DNA from: Segetibacter koreensis DSM 18137
Lineage (GTDB): Bacteria; Bacteroidota; Bacteroidia; Chitinophagales; Chitinophagaceae
Length of the DNA stretch: 64,000 nt
Reading direction: 5' to 3'
Assembly (NCBI RefSeq): GCF_000374045.1
Contig: NZ_KB893370.1
Span: forward strand, 124,001 to 188,000
Shown: piece by piece, positions 20,622-26,047 of the stretch
Position numbering within the stretch: the first letter of the stretch is position 1
Layout of the letters: every line of letters begins with the position of its first letter
Notes under the pieces: model-generated
Told to the model about the DNA's origin: nothing
What the model saw: the letters and a program-made list of their open reading frames with translations, nothing else
The model's database searches: none
Made by a program: the position numbers and the translations under genes

Positions 20622-21728
20622 TTATTCTGATTCGCGTACAGGTTTCATATTTGGCACTTTTAAAAGAAAGCTTGTACCTACGCCTGGTGTTGATGCAACG
20701 GATATATCTCCCCCTATTCGTGTAAGCGCCTCTTTTACTATATACAGTCCAATACCCAAACCTGTTACTGTAAAATTGCTTCTAAAAAACATCTTGAAAA
20801 TATTATTTAAGTGATCTTCAATAATGCCAACTCCATTATCTTCTATTAAGATATTAGCTTCCTGTTGGTTAACGTCAATTACTAACTTTACAAAGGGATT
20901 ACATTCATCTGGTTTCTGATATTTAACAGCATTTGAAATAAGATTATTTAAAATAACAGATAGCCTGAAGGCATCGGACCAGAATTCCTCTGGCTGATTT
21001 ACCTGCAAATCGAATATAATAGATCTATTTTGCATGCGGATAAGATCGATGCTATCAGTTGCAAGTTTTTTAAGATCAACAATCTCGTAAGCTTCATCTA
21101 CGCGAACACTTTTATAATATTCTATAACTTTAATGATAAAAAAATCCATCTTGTTCACGCAGCTCTCAATCATGCCCATATAACCGTTCGGATCTTTAAC
21201 GGAACCTTCCATCTTGGCCAGGTTAAGAACTCCCATTACTGACGCCAGCGGAGACCTGAGGTCATGCGACGTACTGTAAACGAACCTATTCAATTCATCA
21301 TTTGTTCTTTGAAGTTCTTCTATTTTAATTTTAAGATTTTGTCTTGTGGTATATACCTCGTAAGCATTTTTTATCGATGTCTGCAGTTCCAGCTTATCCC
21401 ATGGCTTTTTGATATACCTAAAAATTTGTCCCTTATTTATCGCATCAATTATTGCTTCTACGTCAGTATAGCCGGTTAATAATATCCGCATTGGGTCGGG
21501 GTGCGCAGTTCTTACAATATCAAAAAATTCGACTCCCGTTGATTGTGGCATACGCTGGTCAGCAATAATGATATGAACGGTATTATTATTGAGAATATTC
21601 AGACCTTGTGCAGATGAAGTAGCAGTAAAAATATCATAGTTTCTCCGGAAAGTAGCCTTAAACGAGAGAAGGTTATCTTCTTCGTCGTCAATATATAAAA
21701 TAGAGATCTTCTTATTGTTAGCACTCAT
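20622..21728 (-). CDS. Receiver-histidine kinase hybrid, cytosolic
   Basis: 368 residues with no membrane segment. The N-terminal receiver (about 8-125) has the acidic pocket D14-D15-E16 and phospho-acceptor D57 (IIIADQRMP), plus the lysine of YIKKPW. A coiled linker leads to a histidine kinase: H155 in STSHDLRSPLA, the N box NLISNAVKY, and ATP lid motifs IEDNGVGI and GLGIGLYIV. A receiver in front of a kinase usually lets one phosphorelay gate another. Last gene of a four-gene operon, 12 bp after the 7TM sensor kinase, its likely upstream partner. The receiver closely resembles the stand-alone receiver at 25583. Confidence 0.85.
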   Translation of the reverse strand: MSANNKKISILYIDDEEDNLLSFKATFRRNYDIFTATSSAQGLNILNNNTVHIIIADQRMPQSTGVEFFDIVRTAHPDPMRILLTGYTDVEAIIDAINKGQIFRYIKKPWDKLELQTSIKNAYEVYTTRQNLKIKIEELQRTNDELNRFVYSTSHDLRSPLASVMGVLNLAKMEGSVKDPNGYMGMIESCVNKMDFFIIKVIEYYKSVRVDEAYEIVDLKKLATDSIDLIRMQNRSIIFDLQVNQPEEFWSDAFRLSVILNNLISNAVKYQKPDECNPFVKLVIDVNQQEANILIEDNGVGIIEDHLNNIFKMFFRSNFTVTGLGIGLYIVKEALTRIGGDISVASTPGVGTSFLLKVPNMKPVRESE

Positions 21729-21740
21729 TATTTATATGAA

Positions 21741-23966
21741 TTAAATTATGGGTTTTCCGGGTATTATATTATTTAATGTTATTATAAACTCACATCCTTT
21801 TCCTTCTTCAGAAATCACTTCAATTTTTCCTGAATGTTCTTTAATGATTTTAAAAACTATAGCCATTCCTAATCCTGTTCCTTCTCCAACATCTTTTGTT
21901 GTAAAGAACGGATCATAAATTTTTTGCTTTACCTCTTCTGACATTCCTTTTCCCGTATCCTTAATCCTTATTTCAATTTCATCCTCGACAACACGGTTTG
22001 TGGTAATTATTATTTTCTCGTCCGTGCCTATATTTTCTTTTGCCTTAATAGCGTGTATCGCATTGGACAAAATATTCATAAATACCTGGTTCAGCTTTCC
22101 TGGATAACATTCTATAGTTCCATCTGCATTGTACTCTTTTACAACAGTAATATTAGCAGGAATATTGCTTCGCAATAAAATCAGAGTTGAGTCTATTCCT
22201 TCATGAATGTTTACCGTTTTTATTACGCTCTCATCTAACCTGCTAAAAGTTCTCAGGCCTCTTACAATTTCTGCGGTCCTTTCTGCACCATTTTCTATAC
22301 CAGTCATTAGGCTTGTGATCTCATCTTTTACAAAATCTATATCAATACTTTTTTTCAATGATTCTATTTGTTTCAAATGAGATGCCACCTCCTGGCTGTC
22401 TAGCGTATGCAGCTTGCTATATTCATCTATCACCTCTACCAAATCTTTAAAATCCAGCTGCAATGGTTTGATATTGCTTTTTACAAAATTGATCGGGTTG
22501 TTTATTTCATGAGCGATACCTGCCGTCAACTGACCCAAAGAAGCCATCTTTTCAGCCTCTACCAGTTGTATCTGTGTTCCTTTCAAATTTTTAAATGCCC
22601 CAGACAATTGCTCATTAGTCGTTTGTAATTCCTCGGTTCTTTCCGCTACCTTTCTTTCAAGCACTATATTTTGCTCCCTTACCAATTTTTCATTTTCTCT
22701 TGATATTTTTAAAGCCTCCGCCTGCGATGTTTCTTTTTCTTTTTTCAAAATGTTTATTCTATCGGCCAGGGCCAAAGACAATAATGCAACCTCTATCGCT
22801 GACCCGATATAAAAGATATAGGCAGTGAAAGTGTTATAAGGCAACAAGTTAATGTTTATAAAAATTAAAACAATAAAAGATAGTAATAAAGCAAGCCAGG
22901 CGATCAGGTAAAAAACGGCCGGACGAAAACCCCGTTTGGCTAAATGAATAGAAACTATTAATACGACGATAACACTAAGAAGGCCATTAAAGTTTAAAAT
23001 ATAATAGCTGAAAGAAATGTAGCCTAATATGCTTAAAACTAATCCTGCGATATACACACCAATAAGTCCTTTTAAAAGTACATGGGCTTTACGAAAAAAC
23101 CGGGAAGTATGCAGAAATATCATTGAAAACAAAATACCGGTGACAGTAGCAAAAGTAGATGTCCAAATAACAGCATATTTATTTATTGAAGGAAAATTTG
23201 GCCAAAAATATCTATAGGCATAACCACCTAGCGTTAATTGTGCAAGTGCTAGAAAGAAAATGTAAATAATATAATACAGGTAGTTGTTATCACGAGTAGA
23301 GAAATAAAGAAAAAGATTGTAAAGAAACATAATACCTAAAATGCCCAGGTAGGAACTCATAATAAAGGTCTGAAAAATAATAGAATCAGCTAACCCATTA
23401 TATGCACATACAGAAGCAGGAAGAACAATAGGATGTTCACTTGTAATATGAACTAAATATTCCCCTTCCTGGCCTACAGGAAGATTTAAGTTTAAAATAA
23501 TATCAGGTGAAGCAACGATGGTATGTTTCAAAGGCAACTCATTACCTCCTTCAGTTATAAGAGACAAACCGGCGTTGTTTTTTTTATAGACACTTACACG
23601 TCCGAGATTTGAGAAAGCAATATTTAAATAAACAGAAGGCGATGAAGAATTATTTACAGCTCTAAATTTTAACCAGACGCTTTTTATAACAGGATTATAA
23701 TTGGGAGTACCACCTGTTACAGTATTAAATTTTTTTTGTGTTACCGTTTCTAAAGATGAAAAAGTGTCTTTGTCTACATGTTCTTCAACATAATTTCCAA
23801 TAGAAATGGTTGGATGACTGTCGGTAATGCTTATTACAGGAGCAGCTTGTACATCTGCAATAAACAAAGTTGAAAGAACAATTAAAAAAAAAGCAATTAC
23901 AAACCTGGTATTTCCGTAAGATGTATTGGTACTCAAATAAAAACTTTTCATAAAGTTAGAAAACAA
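21741..23966 (-). CDS. 7TMR-DISM sensor histidine kinase
   Basis: 741 residues. A signal segment (about 22-42) precedes a periplasmic 7TMR-DISMED2-like beta domain (about 45-195), then seven membrane helices (about 200-400), a coiled coil (about 405-475) and a HisKA kinase with H486 in GIAHEINNP and the lid motifs IKDTGKGM and GTGLGMAIV. DISM receptors are thought to bind carbohydrates or other small ligands outside the membrane. The gene overlaps the ICMT-like gene upstream by 11 bp (a second ATG at 23951 would avoid the overlap). Its position between a synthase-like pair and a receiver kinase suggests it is the sensor of that product (inference). Confidence 0.85.
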   Translation of the reverse strand: MFSNFMKSFYLSTNTSYGNTRFVIAFFLIVLSTLFIADVQAAPVISITDSHPTISIGNYVEEHVDKDTFSSLETVTQKKFNTVTGGTPNYNPVIKSVWLKFRAVNNSSSPSVYLNIAFSNLGRVSVYKKNNAGLSLITEGGNELPLKHTIVASPDIILNLNLPVGQEGEYLVHITSEHPIVLPASVCAYNGLADSIIFQTFIMSSYLGILGIMFLYNLFLYFSTRDNNYLYYIIYIFFLALAQLTLGGYAYRYFWPNFPSINKYAVIWTSTFATVTGILFSMIFLHTSRFFRKAHVLLKGLIGVYIAGLVLSILGYISFSYYILNFNGLLSVIVVLIVSIHLAKRGFRPAVFYLIAWLALLLSFIVLIFININLLPYNTFTAYIFYIGSAIEVALLSLALADRINILKKEKETSQAEALKISRENEKLVREQNIVLERKVAERTEELQTTNEQLSGAFKNLKGTQIQLVEAEKMASLGQLTAGIAHEINNPINFVKSNIKPLQLDFKDLVEVIDEYSKLHTLDSQEVASHLKQIESLKKSIDIDFVKDEITSLMTGIENGAERTAEIVRGLRTFSRLDESVIKTVNIHEGIDSTLILLRSNIPANITVVKEYNADGTIECYPGKLNQVFMNILSNAIHAIKAKENIGTDEKIIITTNRVVEDEIEIRIKDTGKGMSEEVKQKIYDPFFTTKDVGEGTGLGMAIVFKIIKEHSGKIEVISEEGKGCEFIITLNNIIPGKPII

Positions 23967-24594
23967 AAGGAATTATTTTTTTTGTTTGAATCATGTATTC
24001 TTTGTAGCTGTTTCCAAAATGCTCTATCAATTTCCGTTCTTCAATGCCTATACGAACATAATAAGCAATGCTCATAGCAATAATTGATACAACAATTCCT
24101 GTAACGCTTTCTAATAAAACTGCTCCGCCTGTTATACTAAGAAAAGCAGCAAAATAACTGGGATGTCTTATGATCTTGTAAGGCCCGGAATTTATCAGCT
24201 GGTGCGCTTTTTTAATTTGAACAGTAGGCGTAAAAAATTGTCCCAGTGTTTTTACTGCCCACGCTCTAAACCAAATGCCTGTAGCAATCATTACAACACC
24301 TAGGGCAGTTATCCAATTATAATCATTGGCTGAAGCACTAAAATAGGCCCAGTCTACTATGGGGACGACTCCACTTATCAAAGACATAGAAAGAATAAGT
24401 ATTACAGAAAATTTATCGCTTTGCTTTTTATCACTTGTTTCTGCAATACTAAAAGCAGGCTGGGTTAGCCATATACAAATACTTCCAGCTATAATAACTA
24501 AGATTTTAGGATGAAAAATCAATGAAGGGTTTCCCAATAATGGGAGAAATACCATTAGTATATTACTAATAATTGAGAGAGCAACTTTTTTCAT
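23956..24594 (-). CDS. ICMT-like membrane methyltransferase
   Basis: 212 residues with about five membrane segments. The C-terminal signature is that of isoprenylcysteine carboxyl methyltransferase/PEMT-like enzymes: IIRHPSYFAAF, then EERKLIEHFGNSYKEYM and a final proline in KIIPFVF. Such enzymes use S-adenosylmethionine to methylate a lipid-like or carboxyl-bearing substrate at the membrane. Bacteria generally lack prenylated-protein substrates, so the target here is open. It overlaps its upstream gene by 29 bp and the sensor kinase by 11 bp, so it belongs to the same operon and perhaps modifies the upstream enzyme's product (inference). Confidence 0.8.
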   Translation of the reverse strand: MKKVALSIISNILMVFLPLLGNPSLIFHPKILVIIAGSICIWLTQPAFSIAETSDKKQSDKFSVILILSMSLISGVVPIVDWAYFSASANDYNWITALGVVMIATGIWFRAWAVKTLGQFFTPTVQIKKAHQLINSGPYKIIRHPSYFAAFLSITGGAVLLESVTGIVVSIIAMSIAYYVRIGIEERKLIEHFGNSYKEYMIQTKKIIPFVF

Positions 24595-25363
24595 TGGATA
24601 AGATTATTTCAAAGGGTTTAGTAGGCATGAGCACATCCAACTTAAATTCATTTGGATTAGCACTGGCAATTTTTAAAGAATAATGGATTTTTACTAATTT
24701 ATTTTTAAAAGGCGATTTCTCCTCTGCTATATGGTCAAGATTTTTTCTAAGAAAAAATATTTTTTCTCTTTCTCTGGGATGTGCCTCTGGTAGATTAATA
24801 GCGTCTTCGGTATAAAGGGCTGTTGCAAGAAGGTCAAGGTTAGGATAATAAAAAGTTCCTTTATCGCCGATATTTTCCATTTCGGTTCCCCCTATCCAAC
24901 TTTTAAATCTTACCGTCGTGGGCGAACACAATGTAAACAATACTTTTACACCTATTTGCTCTGCAATTGCGACTGCTACTCGTGACGGAAATAAACTTCC
25001 AATTCCAAAACCCGCAACTTCTTTCGAATTCCATAATCCTGACAACTCTGCTGCGCCAAACTGCGAATAATATTTTACGATCTCATAAATTTTTGGATCC
25101 ATCTTGCCTGTAGCTTCTTCTATTGGCAACGGATTTATTCCATTTGCCGCTTGCACCCTTGCTCCGCCGTATAATTTCTCACCATCTAAACTTTCAACAA
25201 CTATAACGAAGATGGCAGGATTATACATCCAGTCATCAGTATTTGTAGTAATATTTTCTATTCCATAAATAGATAAAACACGTCTGTGGCCACTGATAAA
25301 CCTAAGACACGTATCAGGATCCTCAATGGCTCTGAAGGCTCTTATTTTTATTTCTGTTATCAT
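24566..25363 (-). CDS. GNAT/autoinducer-synthase-like acyltransferase (putative)
   Basis: 265 residues, soluble. I recognise no exact family, but the layout recalls the acyl-homoserine-lactone synthase/FeeM branch of the GNAT fold: HRRVLSIYGI, a strand pair ending in DGEKLYGGARVQ (compare the conserved Arg of LuxI-type enzymes), AAELSGLWNS (compare the E-x-S-R-F motif), a glycine turn GFGIGSLFPSR before a helix, then GVKVLFTLCSPTTV and a FKSWIGG turn. It may acylate an amino-acid-like substrate. It opens the operon with the methyltransferase, the 7TM sensor and the receiver-kinase. The fold call is moderate, the product unknown. Confidence 0.5.
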   Translation of the reverse strand: MITEIKIRAFRAIEDPDTCLRFISGHRRVLSIYGIENITTNTDDWMYNPAIFVIVVESLDGEKLYGGARVQAANGINPLPIEEATGKMDPKIYEIVKYYSQFGAAELSGLWNSKEVAGFGIGSLFPSRVAVAIAEQIGVKVLFTLCSPTTVRFKSWIGGTEMENIGDKGTFYYPNLDLLATALYTEDAINLPEAHPREREKIFFLRKNLDHIAEEKSPFKNKLVKIHYSLKIASANPNEFKLDVLMPTKPFEIILSNEKSCSLNY

Positions 25364-25582
25364 TTGGATTCAAGGGGGGATAATTAAAGAGTGTCGTTGT
25401 ACAATAATAACGATCAATTAATAAAAAAATTTTGTATCTGCAAGTATTCCGTAAAATTTGTTGACCTTTTTATTAAAAATTTTCTACTTACAACAATTAT
25501 TATTCTTTTCAGCCGTTTTATTGCTATGGTTTGTTGTAGTAACAAGCAGAAATCAATAAACTAAATAACAATTCTAAATTAT

Positions 25583-26047
25583 ATGAGCGACAAGAATATT
25601 AATGTTTTGTATATTGACGATGAGGTTAATAACCTAAATTCTTTTAAAGCAACCTTCAGAAGAAACTTCAATATTACGACAGCAGAATCCGCTGACGAAG
25701 CATTGAAAATTTTGGAAAAAGAAACTATTCATGTTATTCTAAGTGACCAACGTATGCCTAAAATGACAGGGATAGAATTTTTTGAAAGCATTCAAACAGT
25801 ATTTCCAAATCCCATTCGTATTCTAATTACCGGGTATACAGATATTAATGCTGTAATTGATGCCATAAACCGCGGGCAGGTGTACAAATACTTAACAAAA
25901 CCCTGGATCGAGGATGATGTAAAAATATTTGTAGAAAAAGCTTTTGAAGTATACAGATTAAGAAAAGAAAATATTGACCTCACCAATAAATTGATTGACG
26001 TAAATAAAAAGCTCGAATTCCTGGCAAGACAAGCACTTCTATCTTAA
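25583..26047 (+). CDS. Stand-alone response-regulator receiver
   Basis: 154 residues: a receiver (VLYIDDEVNN; phospho-acceptor Asp in VILSDQRMPK; conserved Lys in YLTKPW) with a short helical tail and no DNA-binding or enzymatic output. It is strikingly like the receiver of the hybrid kinase at 20622 (both share SFKATFRRN, DQRMP, ITGYTD/LTGYTD, VIDAIN/IIDAIN, KPW). It is transcribed away from the signalling operon, sharing 219 bp of upstream DNA with it, so it probably is part of the same circuit, perhaps as a phosphate sink or shuttle (inference). Confidence 0.85.
   Translation: MSDKNINVLYIDDEVNNLNSFKATFRRNFNITTAESADEALKILEKETIHVILSDQRMPKMTGIEFFESIQTVFPNPIRILITGYTDINAVIDAINRGQVYKYLTKPWIEDDVKIFVEKAFEVYRLRKENIDLTNKLIDVNKKLEFLARQALLS

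Follow-up and report, generated by a model that had tools for sequence, protein, structure and literature searches.

A candidate operon for making and sensing an acyl-type signal in Segetibacter koreensis, with an exchangeable tailoring enzyme and a co-varying receptor half

Introduction

Can a bacterial operon that encodes a synthase, a modifying enzyme and a receptor kinase side by side both make a small molecule and sense it? The question is raised by five genes of Segetibacter koreensis DSM 18137 (Chitinophagaceae, Bacteroidota), which lie in a stretch of 64,000 nucleotides (contig NZ_KB893370.1, positions 124,001 to 188,000), here called the window and numbered from its first nucleotide. 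An earlier note, based on the DNA letters alone, had summarized the gene order as 'make, modify, sense, relay' and proposed that the locus makes and senses its own methylated acyl-type signal. Our analysis supports this proposal, with production, methylation, release and sensing as the steps that the gene content would imply: the locus is probably a self-contained signaling module, in which a tailored N-acyl amino acid (a methylated form in the window) is made and then sensed by the adjacent receptor. New with respect to the earlier note, the position of the methyltransferase gene is exchangeable, and the sensory half of the receptor tends to be swapped together with the tailoring enzyme. The locus comprises the following features.

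24566..25363, minus strand: SYN, an acyl-transfer synthase with a GNAT fold, FeeM/LuxI-like, 265 amino acids (reading frame and predicted fold)
23956..24594, minus strand: ICMT-like membrane methyltransferase (PF04140), the tailoring enzyme at the exchangeable position
21741..23951, minus strand: 7TMR-DISM receptor histidine kinase (ATG start; a TTG start gives 23966)
22758..23951, minus strand: sensory half of the receptor, DISMED2 ectodomain and 7TM region, to residue 403 (numbered from the TTG)
21741..22757, minus strand: kinase half of the receptor, linker, HisKA and HATPase, conserved across tailoring classes
20622..21728, minus strand: REC-HisKA-HATPase hybrid, the relay kinase (hereafter REC-kinase)
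25583..26047, plus strand: divergent single-domain receiver
25364..25582, strand not applicable: divergent intergenic region of 219 bp, from the receiver gene to SYN

The genes of the locus and the fold of the synthase

All five reading frames claimed by the earlier note are present at these positions, and the overlap of 29 bp between SYN and the methyltransferase gene and the gap of 12 bp between the two kinase genes are as it had described. The overlap of 11 bp between the methyltransferase and receptor genes is obtained only with a TTG start at 23966 and is lost with the ATG at 23951, 4 bp past the methyltransferase stop, which from the sequence is probably the actual start of the receptor. 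The domain calls are borne out by Pfam matches: the methyltransferase matches ICMT with 70.1 bits (cut-off 24); the receptor matches 7TMR-DISM_7TM (PF07695) with 152.7, DISMED2 (PF07696) with 49.7 and HATPase_c (PF02518) with 80.7 bits, its HisKA match of 26.3 bits being slightly below the cut-off of 26.9; the REC-kinase matches Response_reg (61.8), HATPase_c (75.5) and HisKA (27.2 bits); and the product of the divergent gene has Response_reg as its lone domain. Against NF040696 (protein-S-isoprenylcysteine O-methyltransferase) the window methyltransferase scores 110.8 bits, under the equivalog cut-off of 160, and the RHPSY and EE motifs are kept in at least 95% of 28 ICMT-like members. An alignment of seven loci showed no conserved promoter motif in the gap between the receiver gene and SYN.

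SYN had been likened to the GNAT fold of FeeM and the acyl-homoserine lactone (AHL) synthases. The window sequence has no match in Pfam or NCBIfam up to E 1, and searches of PDB sequences with a single SYN sequence or a profile gave chance-level matches only. Structure prediction agrees with the likeness. The AlphaFold model, built from an alignment of the window sequence and 74 named relatives (the closest, at 81% identity, from a Segetibacter metagenome-assembled genome), has a mean predicted local distance difference test (pLDDT) of 91.5 and a predicted template modeling score of 0.88. Its six top PDB matches in Foldseek are FeeM chains (E 1.9e-8 to 3.4e-7), followed at ranks 7-12 by the AHL synthases BjaI, RpaI and MesI (E 4.4e-7 to 1.2e-6); TofI and LasI come lower, amid other GNAT proteins among the 50 matches listed, and the five AHL synthases together span E 4.4e-7 to 1.3e-5. 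Template modeling (TM) scores by query length are similar for FeeM (0.48-0.50) and BjaI, RpaI and MesI (0.44-0.52), indicating that the common part is the GNAT core and that the ranking of FeeM in first place rests on E-values. An earlier model from 61 other rows (pLDDT 91.9) returned the identical group order, with FeeM first. When 61 SYN rows were compared with Pfam, weak GNAT matches appeared in 11, and the 12 families matched in all, up to E 1, included no LuxI-type or autoinducer-synthase family. SYN also carries GGARVQ and AELSG motifs in an order that we take to be LuxI-like.

A profile of 148 SYN sequences (those of 200-300 amino acids, out of 152) aligned, across 178 columns, with a gene that neighbors the Rv1355c-family genes of Rhodococcus and Nocardia (E 4.7e-5, score 39.9, probability 68%) and from its position would be TrzA or TyzA; 75 control families, assembled from neighboring genes, scored no higher than 23.1. 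A Streptomyces GNAT-ThiF fusion (L218), a Streptomyces GNAT protein (L219) and the FeeM domain of a Nitratidesulfovibrio protein (L222) gave no significant alignment with SYN. An N-acyl amino acid derivative would be a better guess for the SYN product than an AHL.

Linkage of synthase and receptor

In collections with one genome per species, SYN is present in 89 of 294 family genomes and in 13 of the 395 genomes of a phylum sample. DISM kinases are widespread, with one at E<=1e-10 in 220 of the 294 family genomes; the Segetibacter genome (6.1 Mb) has a single 7TMR-DISM protein at E<=0.001, the window receptor. A scan of genome contigs confirmed at least 573 of 594 candidate stretches, of which the best 80 were kept, so that the locus set is skewed toward close relatives. 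It comprises 175 loci including the window, 152 of them distinct at 97% SYN identity and 120 with at least 6 kb downstream and at least 3.5 kb upstream. Genes were called with a simple open-frame script and labeled by BLAST to representatives, and individual labels may therefore be wrong.

At 118 of these 120 distinct loci a DISM kinase gene lies at most three genes downstream of SYN on the same strand. With one DISM protein in the genome, such an arrangement goes beyond chance. A REC-kinase is found in 111 of the 120 loci and a lone receiver a few genes away in 110; the nine loci without a called REC-kinase are six class I methyltransferase loci, where a lone receiver follows the kinase, and L142, L147 and L211. 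The earlier note had made its proposal depend on the fold of the first protein and on the genes staying together in related genomes; the fold is FeeM/LuxI-like, and the genes do not separate freely.

L142 and L147 have the layout REC-ThiF-SYN without a DISM kinase, and in L142 SYN is followed by a gene of the sodium/bile acid symporter family (PF01758). Viral contigs, searched with one query sequence that reaches close relatives only, held no SYN relative, and plasmid records gave no SYN match. The FeeM family, searched in 148 phylum genomes, had matches in 11 (7 over the cut-off), none of them in a SYN-bearing genome.

Exchange of the tailoring enzyme

The gene beside SYN encodes ThiF at 40 of the 120 loci, ThiF with a nitroreductase at 37, an ICMT-like methyltransferase at 19, a class I methyltransferase at 13 and a flavin adenine dinucleotide (FAD) oxidase at 3, and 8 loci have none (counts include L160 and L080, relabeled after inspection; domain identities come from ten representatives for Pfam and eight for NCBIfam). 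The methyltransferase is thus one of four interchangeable tailoring classes, namely ICMT-like, class I methyltransferase, FAD oxidase and ThiF with or without nitroreductase. An adjacent ThiF-type cyclase, present at 77 of the 120 loci, is absent from the window, where the methyltransferase takes its place. On the SYN tree the tailoring label changes 33 times with six states, absence included, and 12 times with four classes, unlabeled rows left out, which shows that exchange is frequent. Of the proposed series 'make, modify, sense, relay', the synthase-like fold of SYN and its linkage to the receptor stand, and are joined by the co-variation of sensor and tailoring enzyme described below; the methyltransferase as an essential fixed part was rejected, as four classes alternate at its position.

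Loci without a tailoring gene were also considered as a class of their own. This was rejected: they require 9 changes against a minimum of 4 and are nested in the methyltransferase class, and are therefore probably losses. Thirteen rows carry the label 'none', including L115, where an uncalled methyltransferase gene is present; for this comparison L115 was counted as 'none', and L086 and L194, which end too near SYN to judge, were dropped.

Co-variation of the sensory half with the tailoring class

A receptor that reads the tailored product should show changes in its sensory half when the tailoring enzyme changes. Between L158 (ThiF) and L162 (class I methyltransferase), SYN is 82% and the relay ~78% identical, and the 7TM region and ectodomain are 26% and 23% identical. 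At the DNA level, SYN of L162 aligns with that of L165, a ThiF locus; the alignment is then lost through the tailoring gene and the initial ~384 receptor codons, and resumes over the kinase half, the REC-kinase and the receiver at 71-73%; the control comparison of two ThiF loci (L158 and L165) aligns without a break across 5.4 kb. The same block pattern, with a break at about codon 337, is seen in another lineage between L066 (FAD oxidase) and L069 (ThiF and nitroreductase). In these two pairs from two lineages, tailoring gene and sensory half are replaced as one block between a conserved SYN and a conserved kinase.

Fourteen pairs with different tailoring were matched to pairs with the same tailoring on SYN and relay distance, each locus being used once per set and allowed in both sets. 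The 7TM distance is 0.634 for different and 0.459 for the same tailoring, larger in 12 of the 14 matched pairs (p=0.0012), in contrast to the SYN distance (larger in 6 of 14, p 0.27) and that of the kinase half (2 of 14, p 0.064).

Trees point in the same direction. With four classes, for which at least 3 changes are needed, the sensory half requires 3, compared with 15 for the kinase half of the same proteins and 12 for SYN (139 rows, 126 of them labeled; the 13 without a called tailoring gene are uncounted). Shuffled labels require about 40 (500 shuffles, lowest 34). In 20 bootstraps per tree, the sensory half gave 3 changes in 16 and 4 in 4, the kinase half 13-18 and SYN 9-12. Trees of 115 loci gave 3 changes for the sensory half, 3 for the 7TM region alone and 4 for the ectodomain alone, against 10 for SYN and 14 each for the kinase half and the REC-kinase. 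The ThiF gene is upstream of SYN at 59 loci, and at 21 it is located downstream of SYN and ahead of the receptor gene (80 of 83 ThiF-type loci counted); despite these two positions, the ThiF class adds no change on the sensory-half tree. Six receptors, covering all four classes and one locus without tailoring gene, have an identical domain set, so that the sensory change is a divergence within one receptor type.

ThiF partners and neighboring genes

Two tested proteins with ThiF and nitroreductase domains score 773.6 and 781.2 bits against NF005901 (Rv1355c family), above its cut-off of 476, and two ThiF-only proteins fall just under it (459.3 and 463.3 bits). In 198 phylum genomes, all nine ThiF-bearing NF005901 matches (E<=1e-20) are at a SYN locus, and the family matches in twelve other genomes are nitroreductase-only. 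TrzS (Rv1355c) cyclizes and desaturates the N-acyl-tryptophan made by TrzA to an acyl-tryptazolone (PMC12856293), and TyzA/B/C follow an equivalent route with tyrosine (PMC10404671). The presumed catalytic aspartate of ThiF is kept in 44 of 44 proteins with nitroreductase and in 41 of 41 ungapped ThiF proteins (two more are gapped); by an assumed offset it would correspond to D217 of TrzS. At the R540 position, located with this offset, 29 of the 44 proteins with nitroreductase have R and 12 have K. ICMT enzymes act on carboxylates. The same is stated for ThiF in PMC10404671, which leads to the idea that most caps would hide the otherwise free carboxylate of the N-acyl amino acid.

Related gene fusions occur on plasmids. 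In Nitratidesulfovibrio vulgaris, a FeeM-ThiF-nitroreductase fusion of 989 amino acids (L222:3056-6025) adjoins genes for PEP-CTERM proteins. In Streptomyces sp. NBC_01431, a protein of 622 amino acids (L218:5131-6999) combines a weak GNAT/FeeM-like N-terminal part with a ThiF domain that is 49% identical to a Bacteroidota ThiF, and its gene overlaps a beta-ketoacyl-ACP (acyl carrier protein) synthase 3 gene by 4 bp. On three Rhodococcus plasmids (L220, L237, L238), an Rv1355c-family gene and a presumed acyltransferase gene adjoin a GGDEF gene, so that here, too, a signaling gene is next door.

Several other genes recur near SYN. An extra receiver gene of ~134 residues is present near SYN in 67 of the 175 loci (e.g., L065:4871-5266, L070:12343-12747), in many directly 3' of the REC-kinase gene; Response_reg was found in all three members tested. 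A thioredoxin gene, probably an ordinary chromosomal neighbor, lies near the divergent receiver gene in 44 of the 175 loci (e.g., L031:7612-7929; one tested, matching Pfam Thioredoxin). At one locus two different SYN genes stand in tandem (L080:7796-8515 and L080:9050-9760), perhaps for two acyl specificities. Finally, a record titled Beijerinckiaceae (L135, CAJCIQ010000096.1) carries a Chitinophagaceae-like locus and is probably mislabeled.

Discussion

In the mechanism that we propose, SYN would join an acyl chain, from acyl-coenzyme A or acyl-ACP, to an amino acid. The ICMT-like enzyme of the window would methylate this N-acyl amino acid, most likely giving the methyl ester of the carboxyl group. 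Other species would convert it to an oxazolone by means of a ThiF cyclase, alone or with a flavin oxidase, and still others would modify it with a class I methyltransferase or an FAD oxidase. The tailored product, possibly released to other cells, would bind to the neighboring receptor at its DISMED2/7TM half and be sensed there, and phosphotransfer from the kinase half to the REC-kinase, at its receiver domain, and to the lone receiver would be the presumed route to the output. Tailoring enzyme and sensory half would together form a specificity cassette that is swapped while the synthase on one side and the relay on the other are conserved. The encoding of production and sensing in a single operon suggests signaling to self or between cells, the main rival being that the receptor monitors a product.

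A wider form of this reading, for which we see an even chance, is an autoinducer family across the Bacteroidota, built on one core N-acyl amino acid synthase, with the dialect set by an exchangeable tailoring enzyme and the sensory half exchanged alongside. Acyl-oxazolones would in that case act as signals between cells and have a receptor of a known type. The dialects may then be a methyl ester, an oxazolone, and a methylated or oxidized form.

Several observations weigh against a signaling module of this kind. No exporter or DNA-binding regulator was found by Pfam among the five window genes. The receptor is absent from two of the 120 loci (L142 and L147), both of which retain the divergent receiver. 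At eight of the 120 loci the tailoring position is empty, with sensors that fall inside the methyltransferase class; among eight genomes of this kind that were tested, three have no methyltransferase relative at E<=1e-5, and five have relatives of 30-38% identity elsewhere in the genome. As to the synthase, SYN stays under the cut-off of the FeeM family PF21926 (one of 61 rows matches, at E 0.17), and a profile of 61 rows matches the Rhodococcus and Nocardia genes only weakly (probability 16.7%, E 0.0015).

The co-variation also has its exceptions. In the matched pairs the ectodomain distance of 0.734 versus 0.663 is larger in 10 of 14 and not significant (p=0.068), and the REC-kinase distance is larger in 11 of 14 (p=0.068). 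When ThiF and ThiF with nitroreductase are separated (five states), the count for the sensory half rises to 14 changes, where 4 would be the minimum (SYN 21, kinase half 22), so that desaturation is apparently not distinguished by the sensor, or the flavin oxidase is supplied elsewhere. A regression over 6555 pairs gave coefficients for different tailoring of 0.038 (7TM), 0.018 (ectodomain), 0.014 (SYN), 0.009 (kinase half) and 0.005 (REC-kinase); among 300 free shuffles, none matched any of the first four values and 6 matched the last. As SYN and the kinase half also exceed the shuffles, these do not control for relatedness, and we therefore place the weight on the matched pairs, the DNA blocks and the trees.

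Three other explanations deserve consideration. A tailored N-acyl amino acid could have a job other than signaling, as a membrane lipid, surfactant or antimicrobial, with the receptor monitoring it for feedback or self-protection. N-acyl tyrosine derivatives of Stieleria are reported to be antimicrobial (PMC12856293), the Stieleria synthase lies near ThiF, nitroreductase and methyltransferase genes (PMC12479983), and tryptazolones are more abundant inside cells, with the acyl-tryptophan intermediates mainly in the supernatant (PMC12856293). Product monitoring would also fit the co-variation of sensor and tailoring enzyme. However, Pfam identified no transporter or resistance gene among the five window genes, the most frequent further neighbors within six genes are the extra receiver (67 of 175) and thioredoxin, a nucleoside transporter being found in 15 of 175, and synthase and receptor are nearly inseparable. 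We consider a non-signaling product unlikely, though the least so of the three.

That SYN makes another acyl product, such as an AHL or an N-acyl amine, appears much less probable. AHL synthases do come right after FeeM in the ranking of fold matches, and their TM-scores are equally high, but FeeM outranks every one of them by E-value, no LuxI-type family is among the Pfam families matched by the SYN rows, and the characterized ThiF partners act on N-acyl amino acids (PMC12856293). Marginally less probable again is that tailoring gene and sensory half travel together merely as DNA neighbors, without a relation of ligand and receptor. The replaced block is contiguous, and the tailoring gene is flanked by SYN and the receptor gene in all 43 methyltransferase and FAD oxidase loci as well as in the 21 ThiF-type loci mentioned above. 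Nevertheless, SYN separates ThiF from the receptor in 59 of 80 ThiF-type loci and the sensory-half count stays minimal, and the inspected pairs have their break close to where the 7TM region ends. Production and sensing of a tailored N-acyl amino acid signal remains the reading that we prefer.

The locus suggests a chemical signaling system that has not been described. Oxazolones have already been proposed as possible signals (PMC12856293), and the locus offers a candidate receptor for acyl-oxazolones, since a DISM kinase accompanies the ThiF-type enzymes at most of the 77 loci that have them; a signaling role for these compounds becomes testable through it. If our reading is true, the Bacteroidota gain a small-molecule signaling system of their own, in which signal specificity is altered when an entire biosynthetic enzyme is exchanged along with the receptor's sensing half. 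The swapped pairs of enzyme and sensor would then be a natural experiment in the divergence of signals and receptors.

Comparison with known systems

A literature search covering titles and abstract openings found no description of a combination of synthase, tailoring enzyme and DISM receptor. Among the papers found, the biosynthesis of acyl-oxazolones or related N-acyl tyrosines is treated in PMC12856293, PMC10404671 and PMC12479983; the terms 'two-component' and 'histidine kinase' are absent from the text of the first, and 'histidine kinase' from that of the last.

Like OxzAB, TyzACB and TrzAS of Pseudoalteromonas, Mycobacterium and Rhodococcus, where an N-acyltransferase gene lies beside one for ThiF or ThiF with a flavin oxidase, the ThiF-type loci use the same partner family. 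OxzAB was reportedly described by de Rond and co-workers. In contrast to these systems, for which the available parts of the reports describe no coupled receptor kinase, the SYN loci join the synthase to a DISM kinase, and their cyclase is replaceable by methyltransferases, as in the window, or by an FAD oxidase. The N-acyl amino acid synthase FeeM is the best fold match of SYN, which differs in lying under the FeeM family cut-off and within a receptor operon. With LuxI/LuxR the SYN loci share a related synthase fold and a synthase that adjoins its presumed receptor; this receptor, however, is a 7TM kinase and not a LuxR regulator, separate tailoring enzymes are present and there is no match to an AHL synthase family.

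The pairing of a small-molecule synthase (CqsA) with a membrane histidine kinase is also found in Vibrio, where CqsS is described as sensing CAI-1. Synthase and receptor of the SYN loci belong to other families. We know of no exchangeable tailoring enzyme in CqsA/CqsS. In the agr system of Staphylococcus aureus, the variable block runs from the 3' part of agrB through agrD into the 5' part of agrC, the gene for the receptor kinase (PMC3673130). As in agr, the signal-specifying gene varies as one block with the receptor's sensory half, and the module as a whole would operate as quorum-sensing loci do. The agr signal is a peptide that varies within a species, whereas the signal of the SYN loci would be small and lipid-like, and here the block varies between species through the exchange of whole enzymes.

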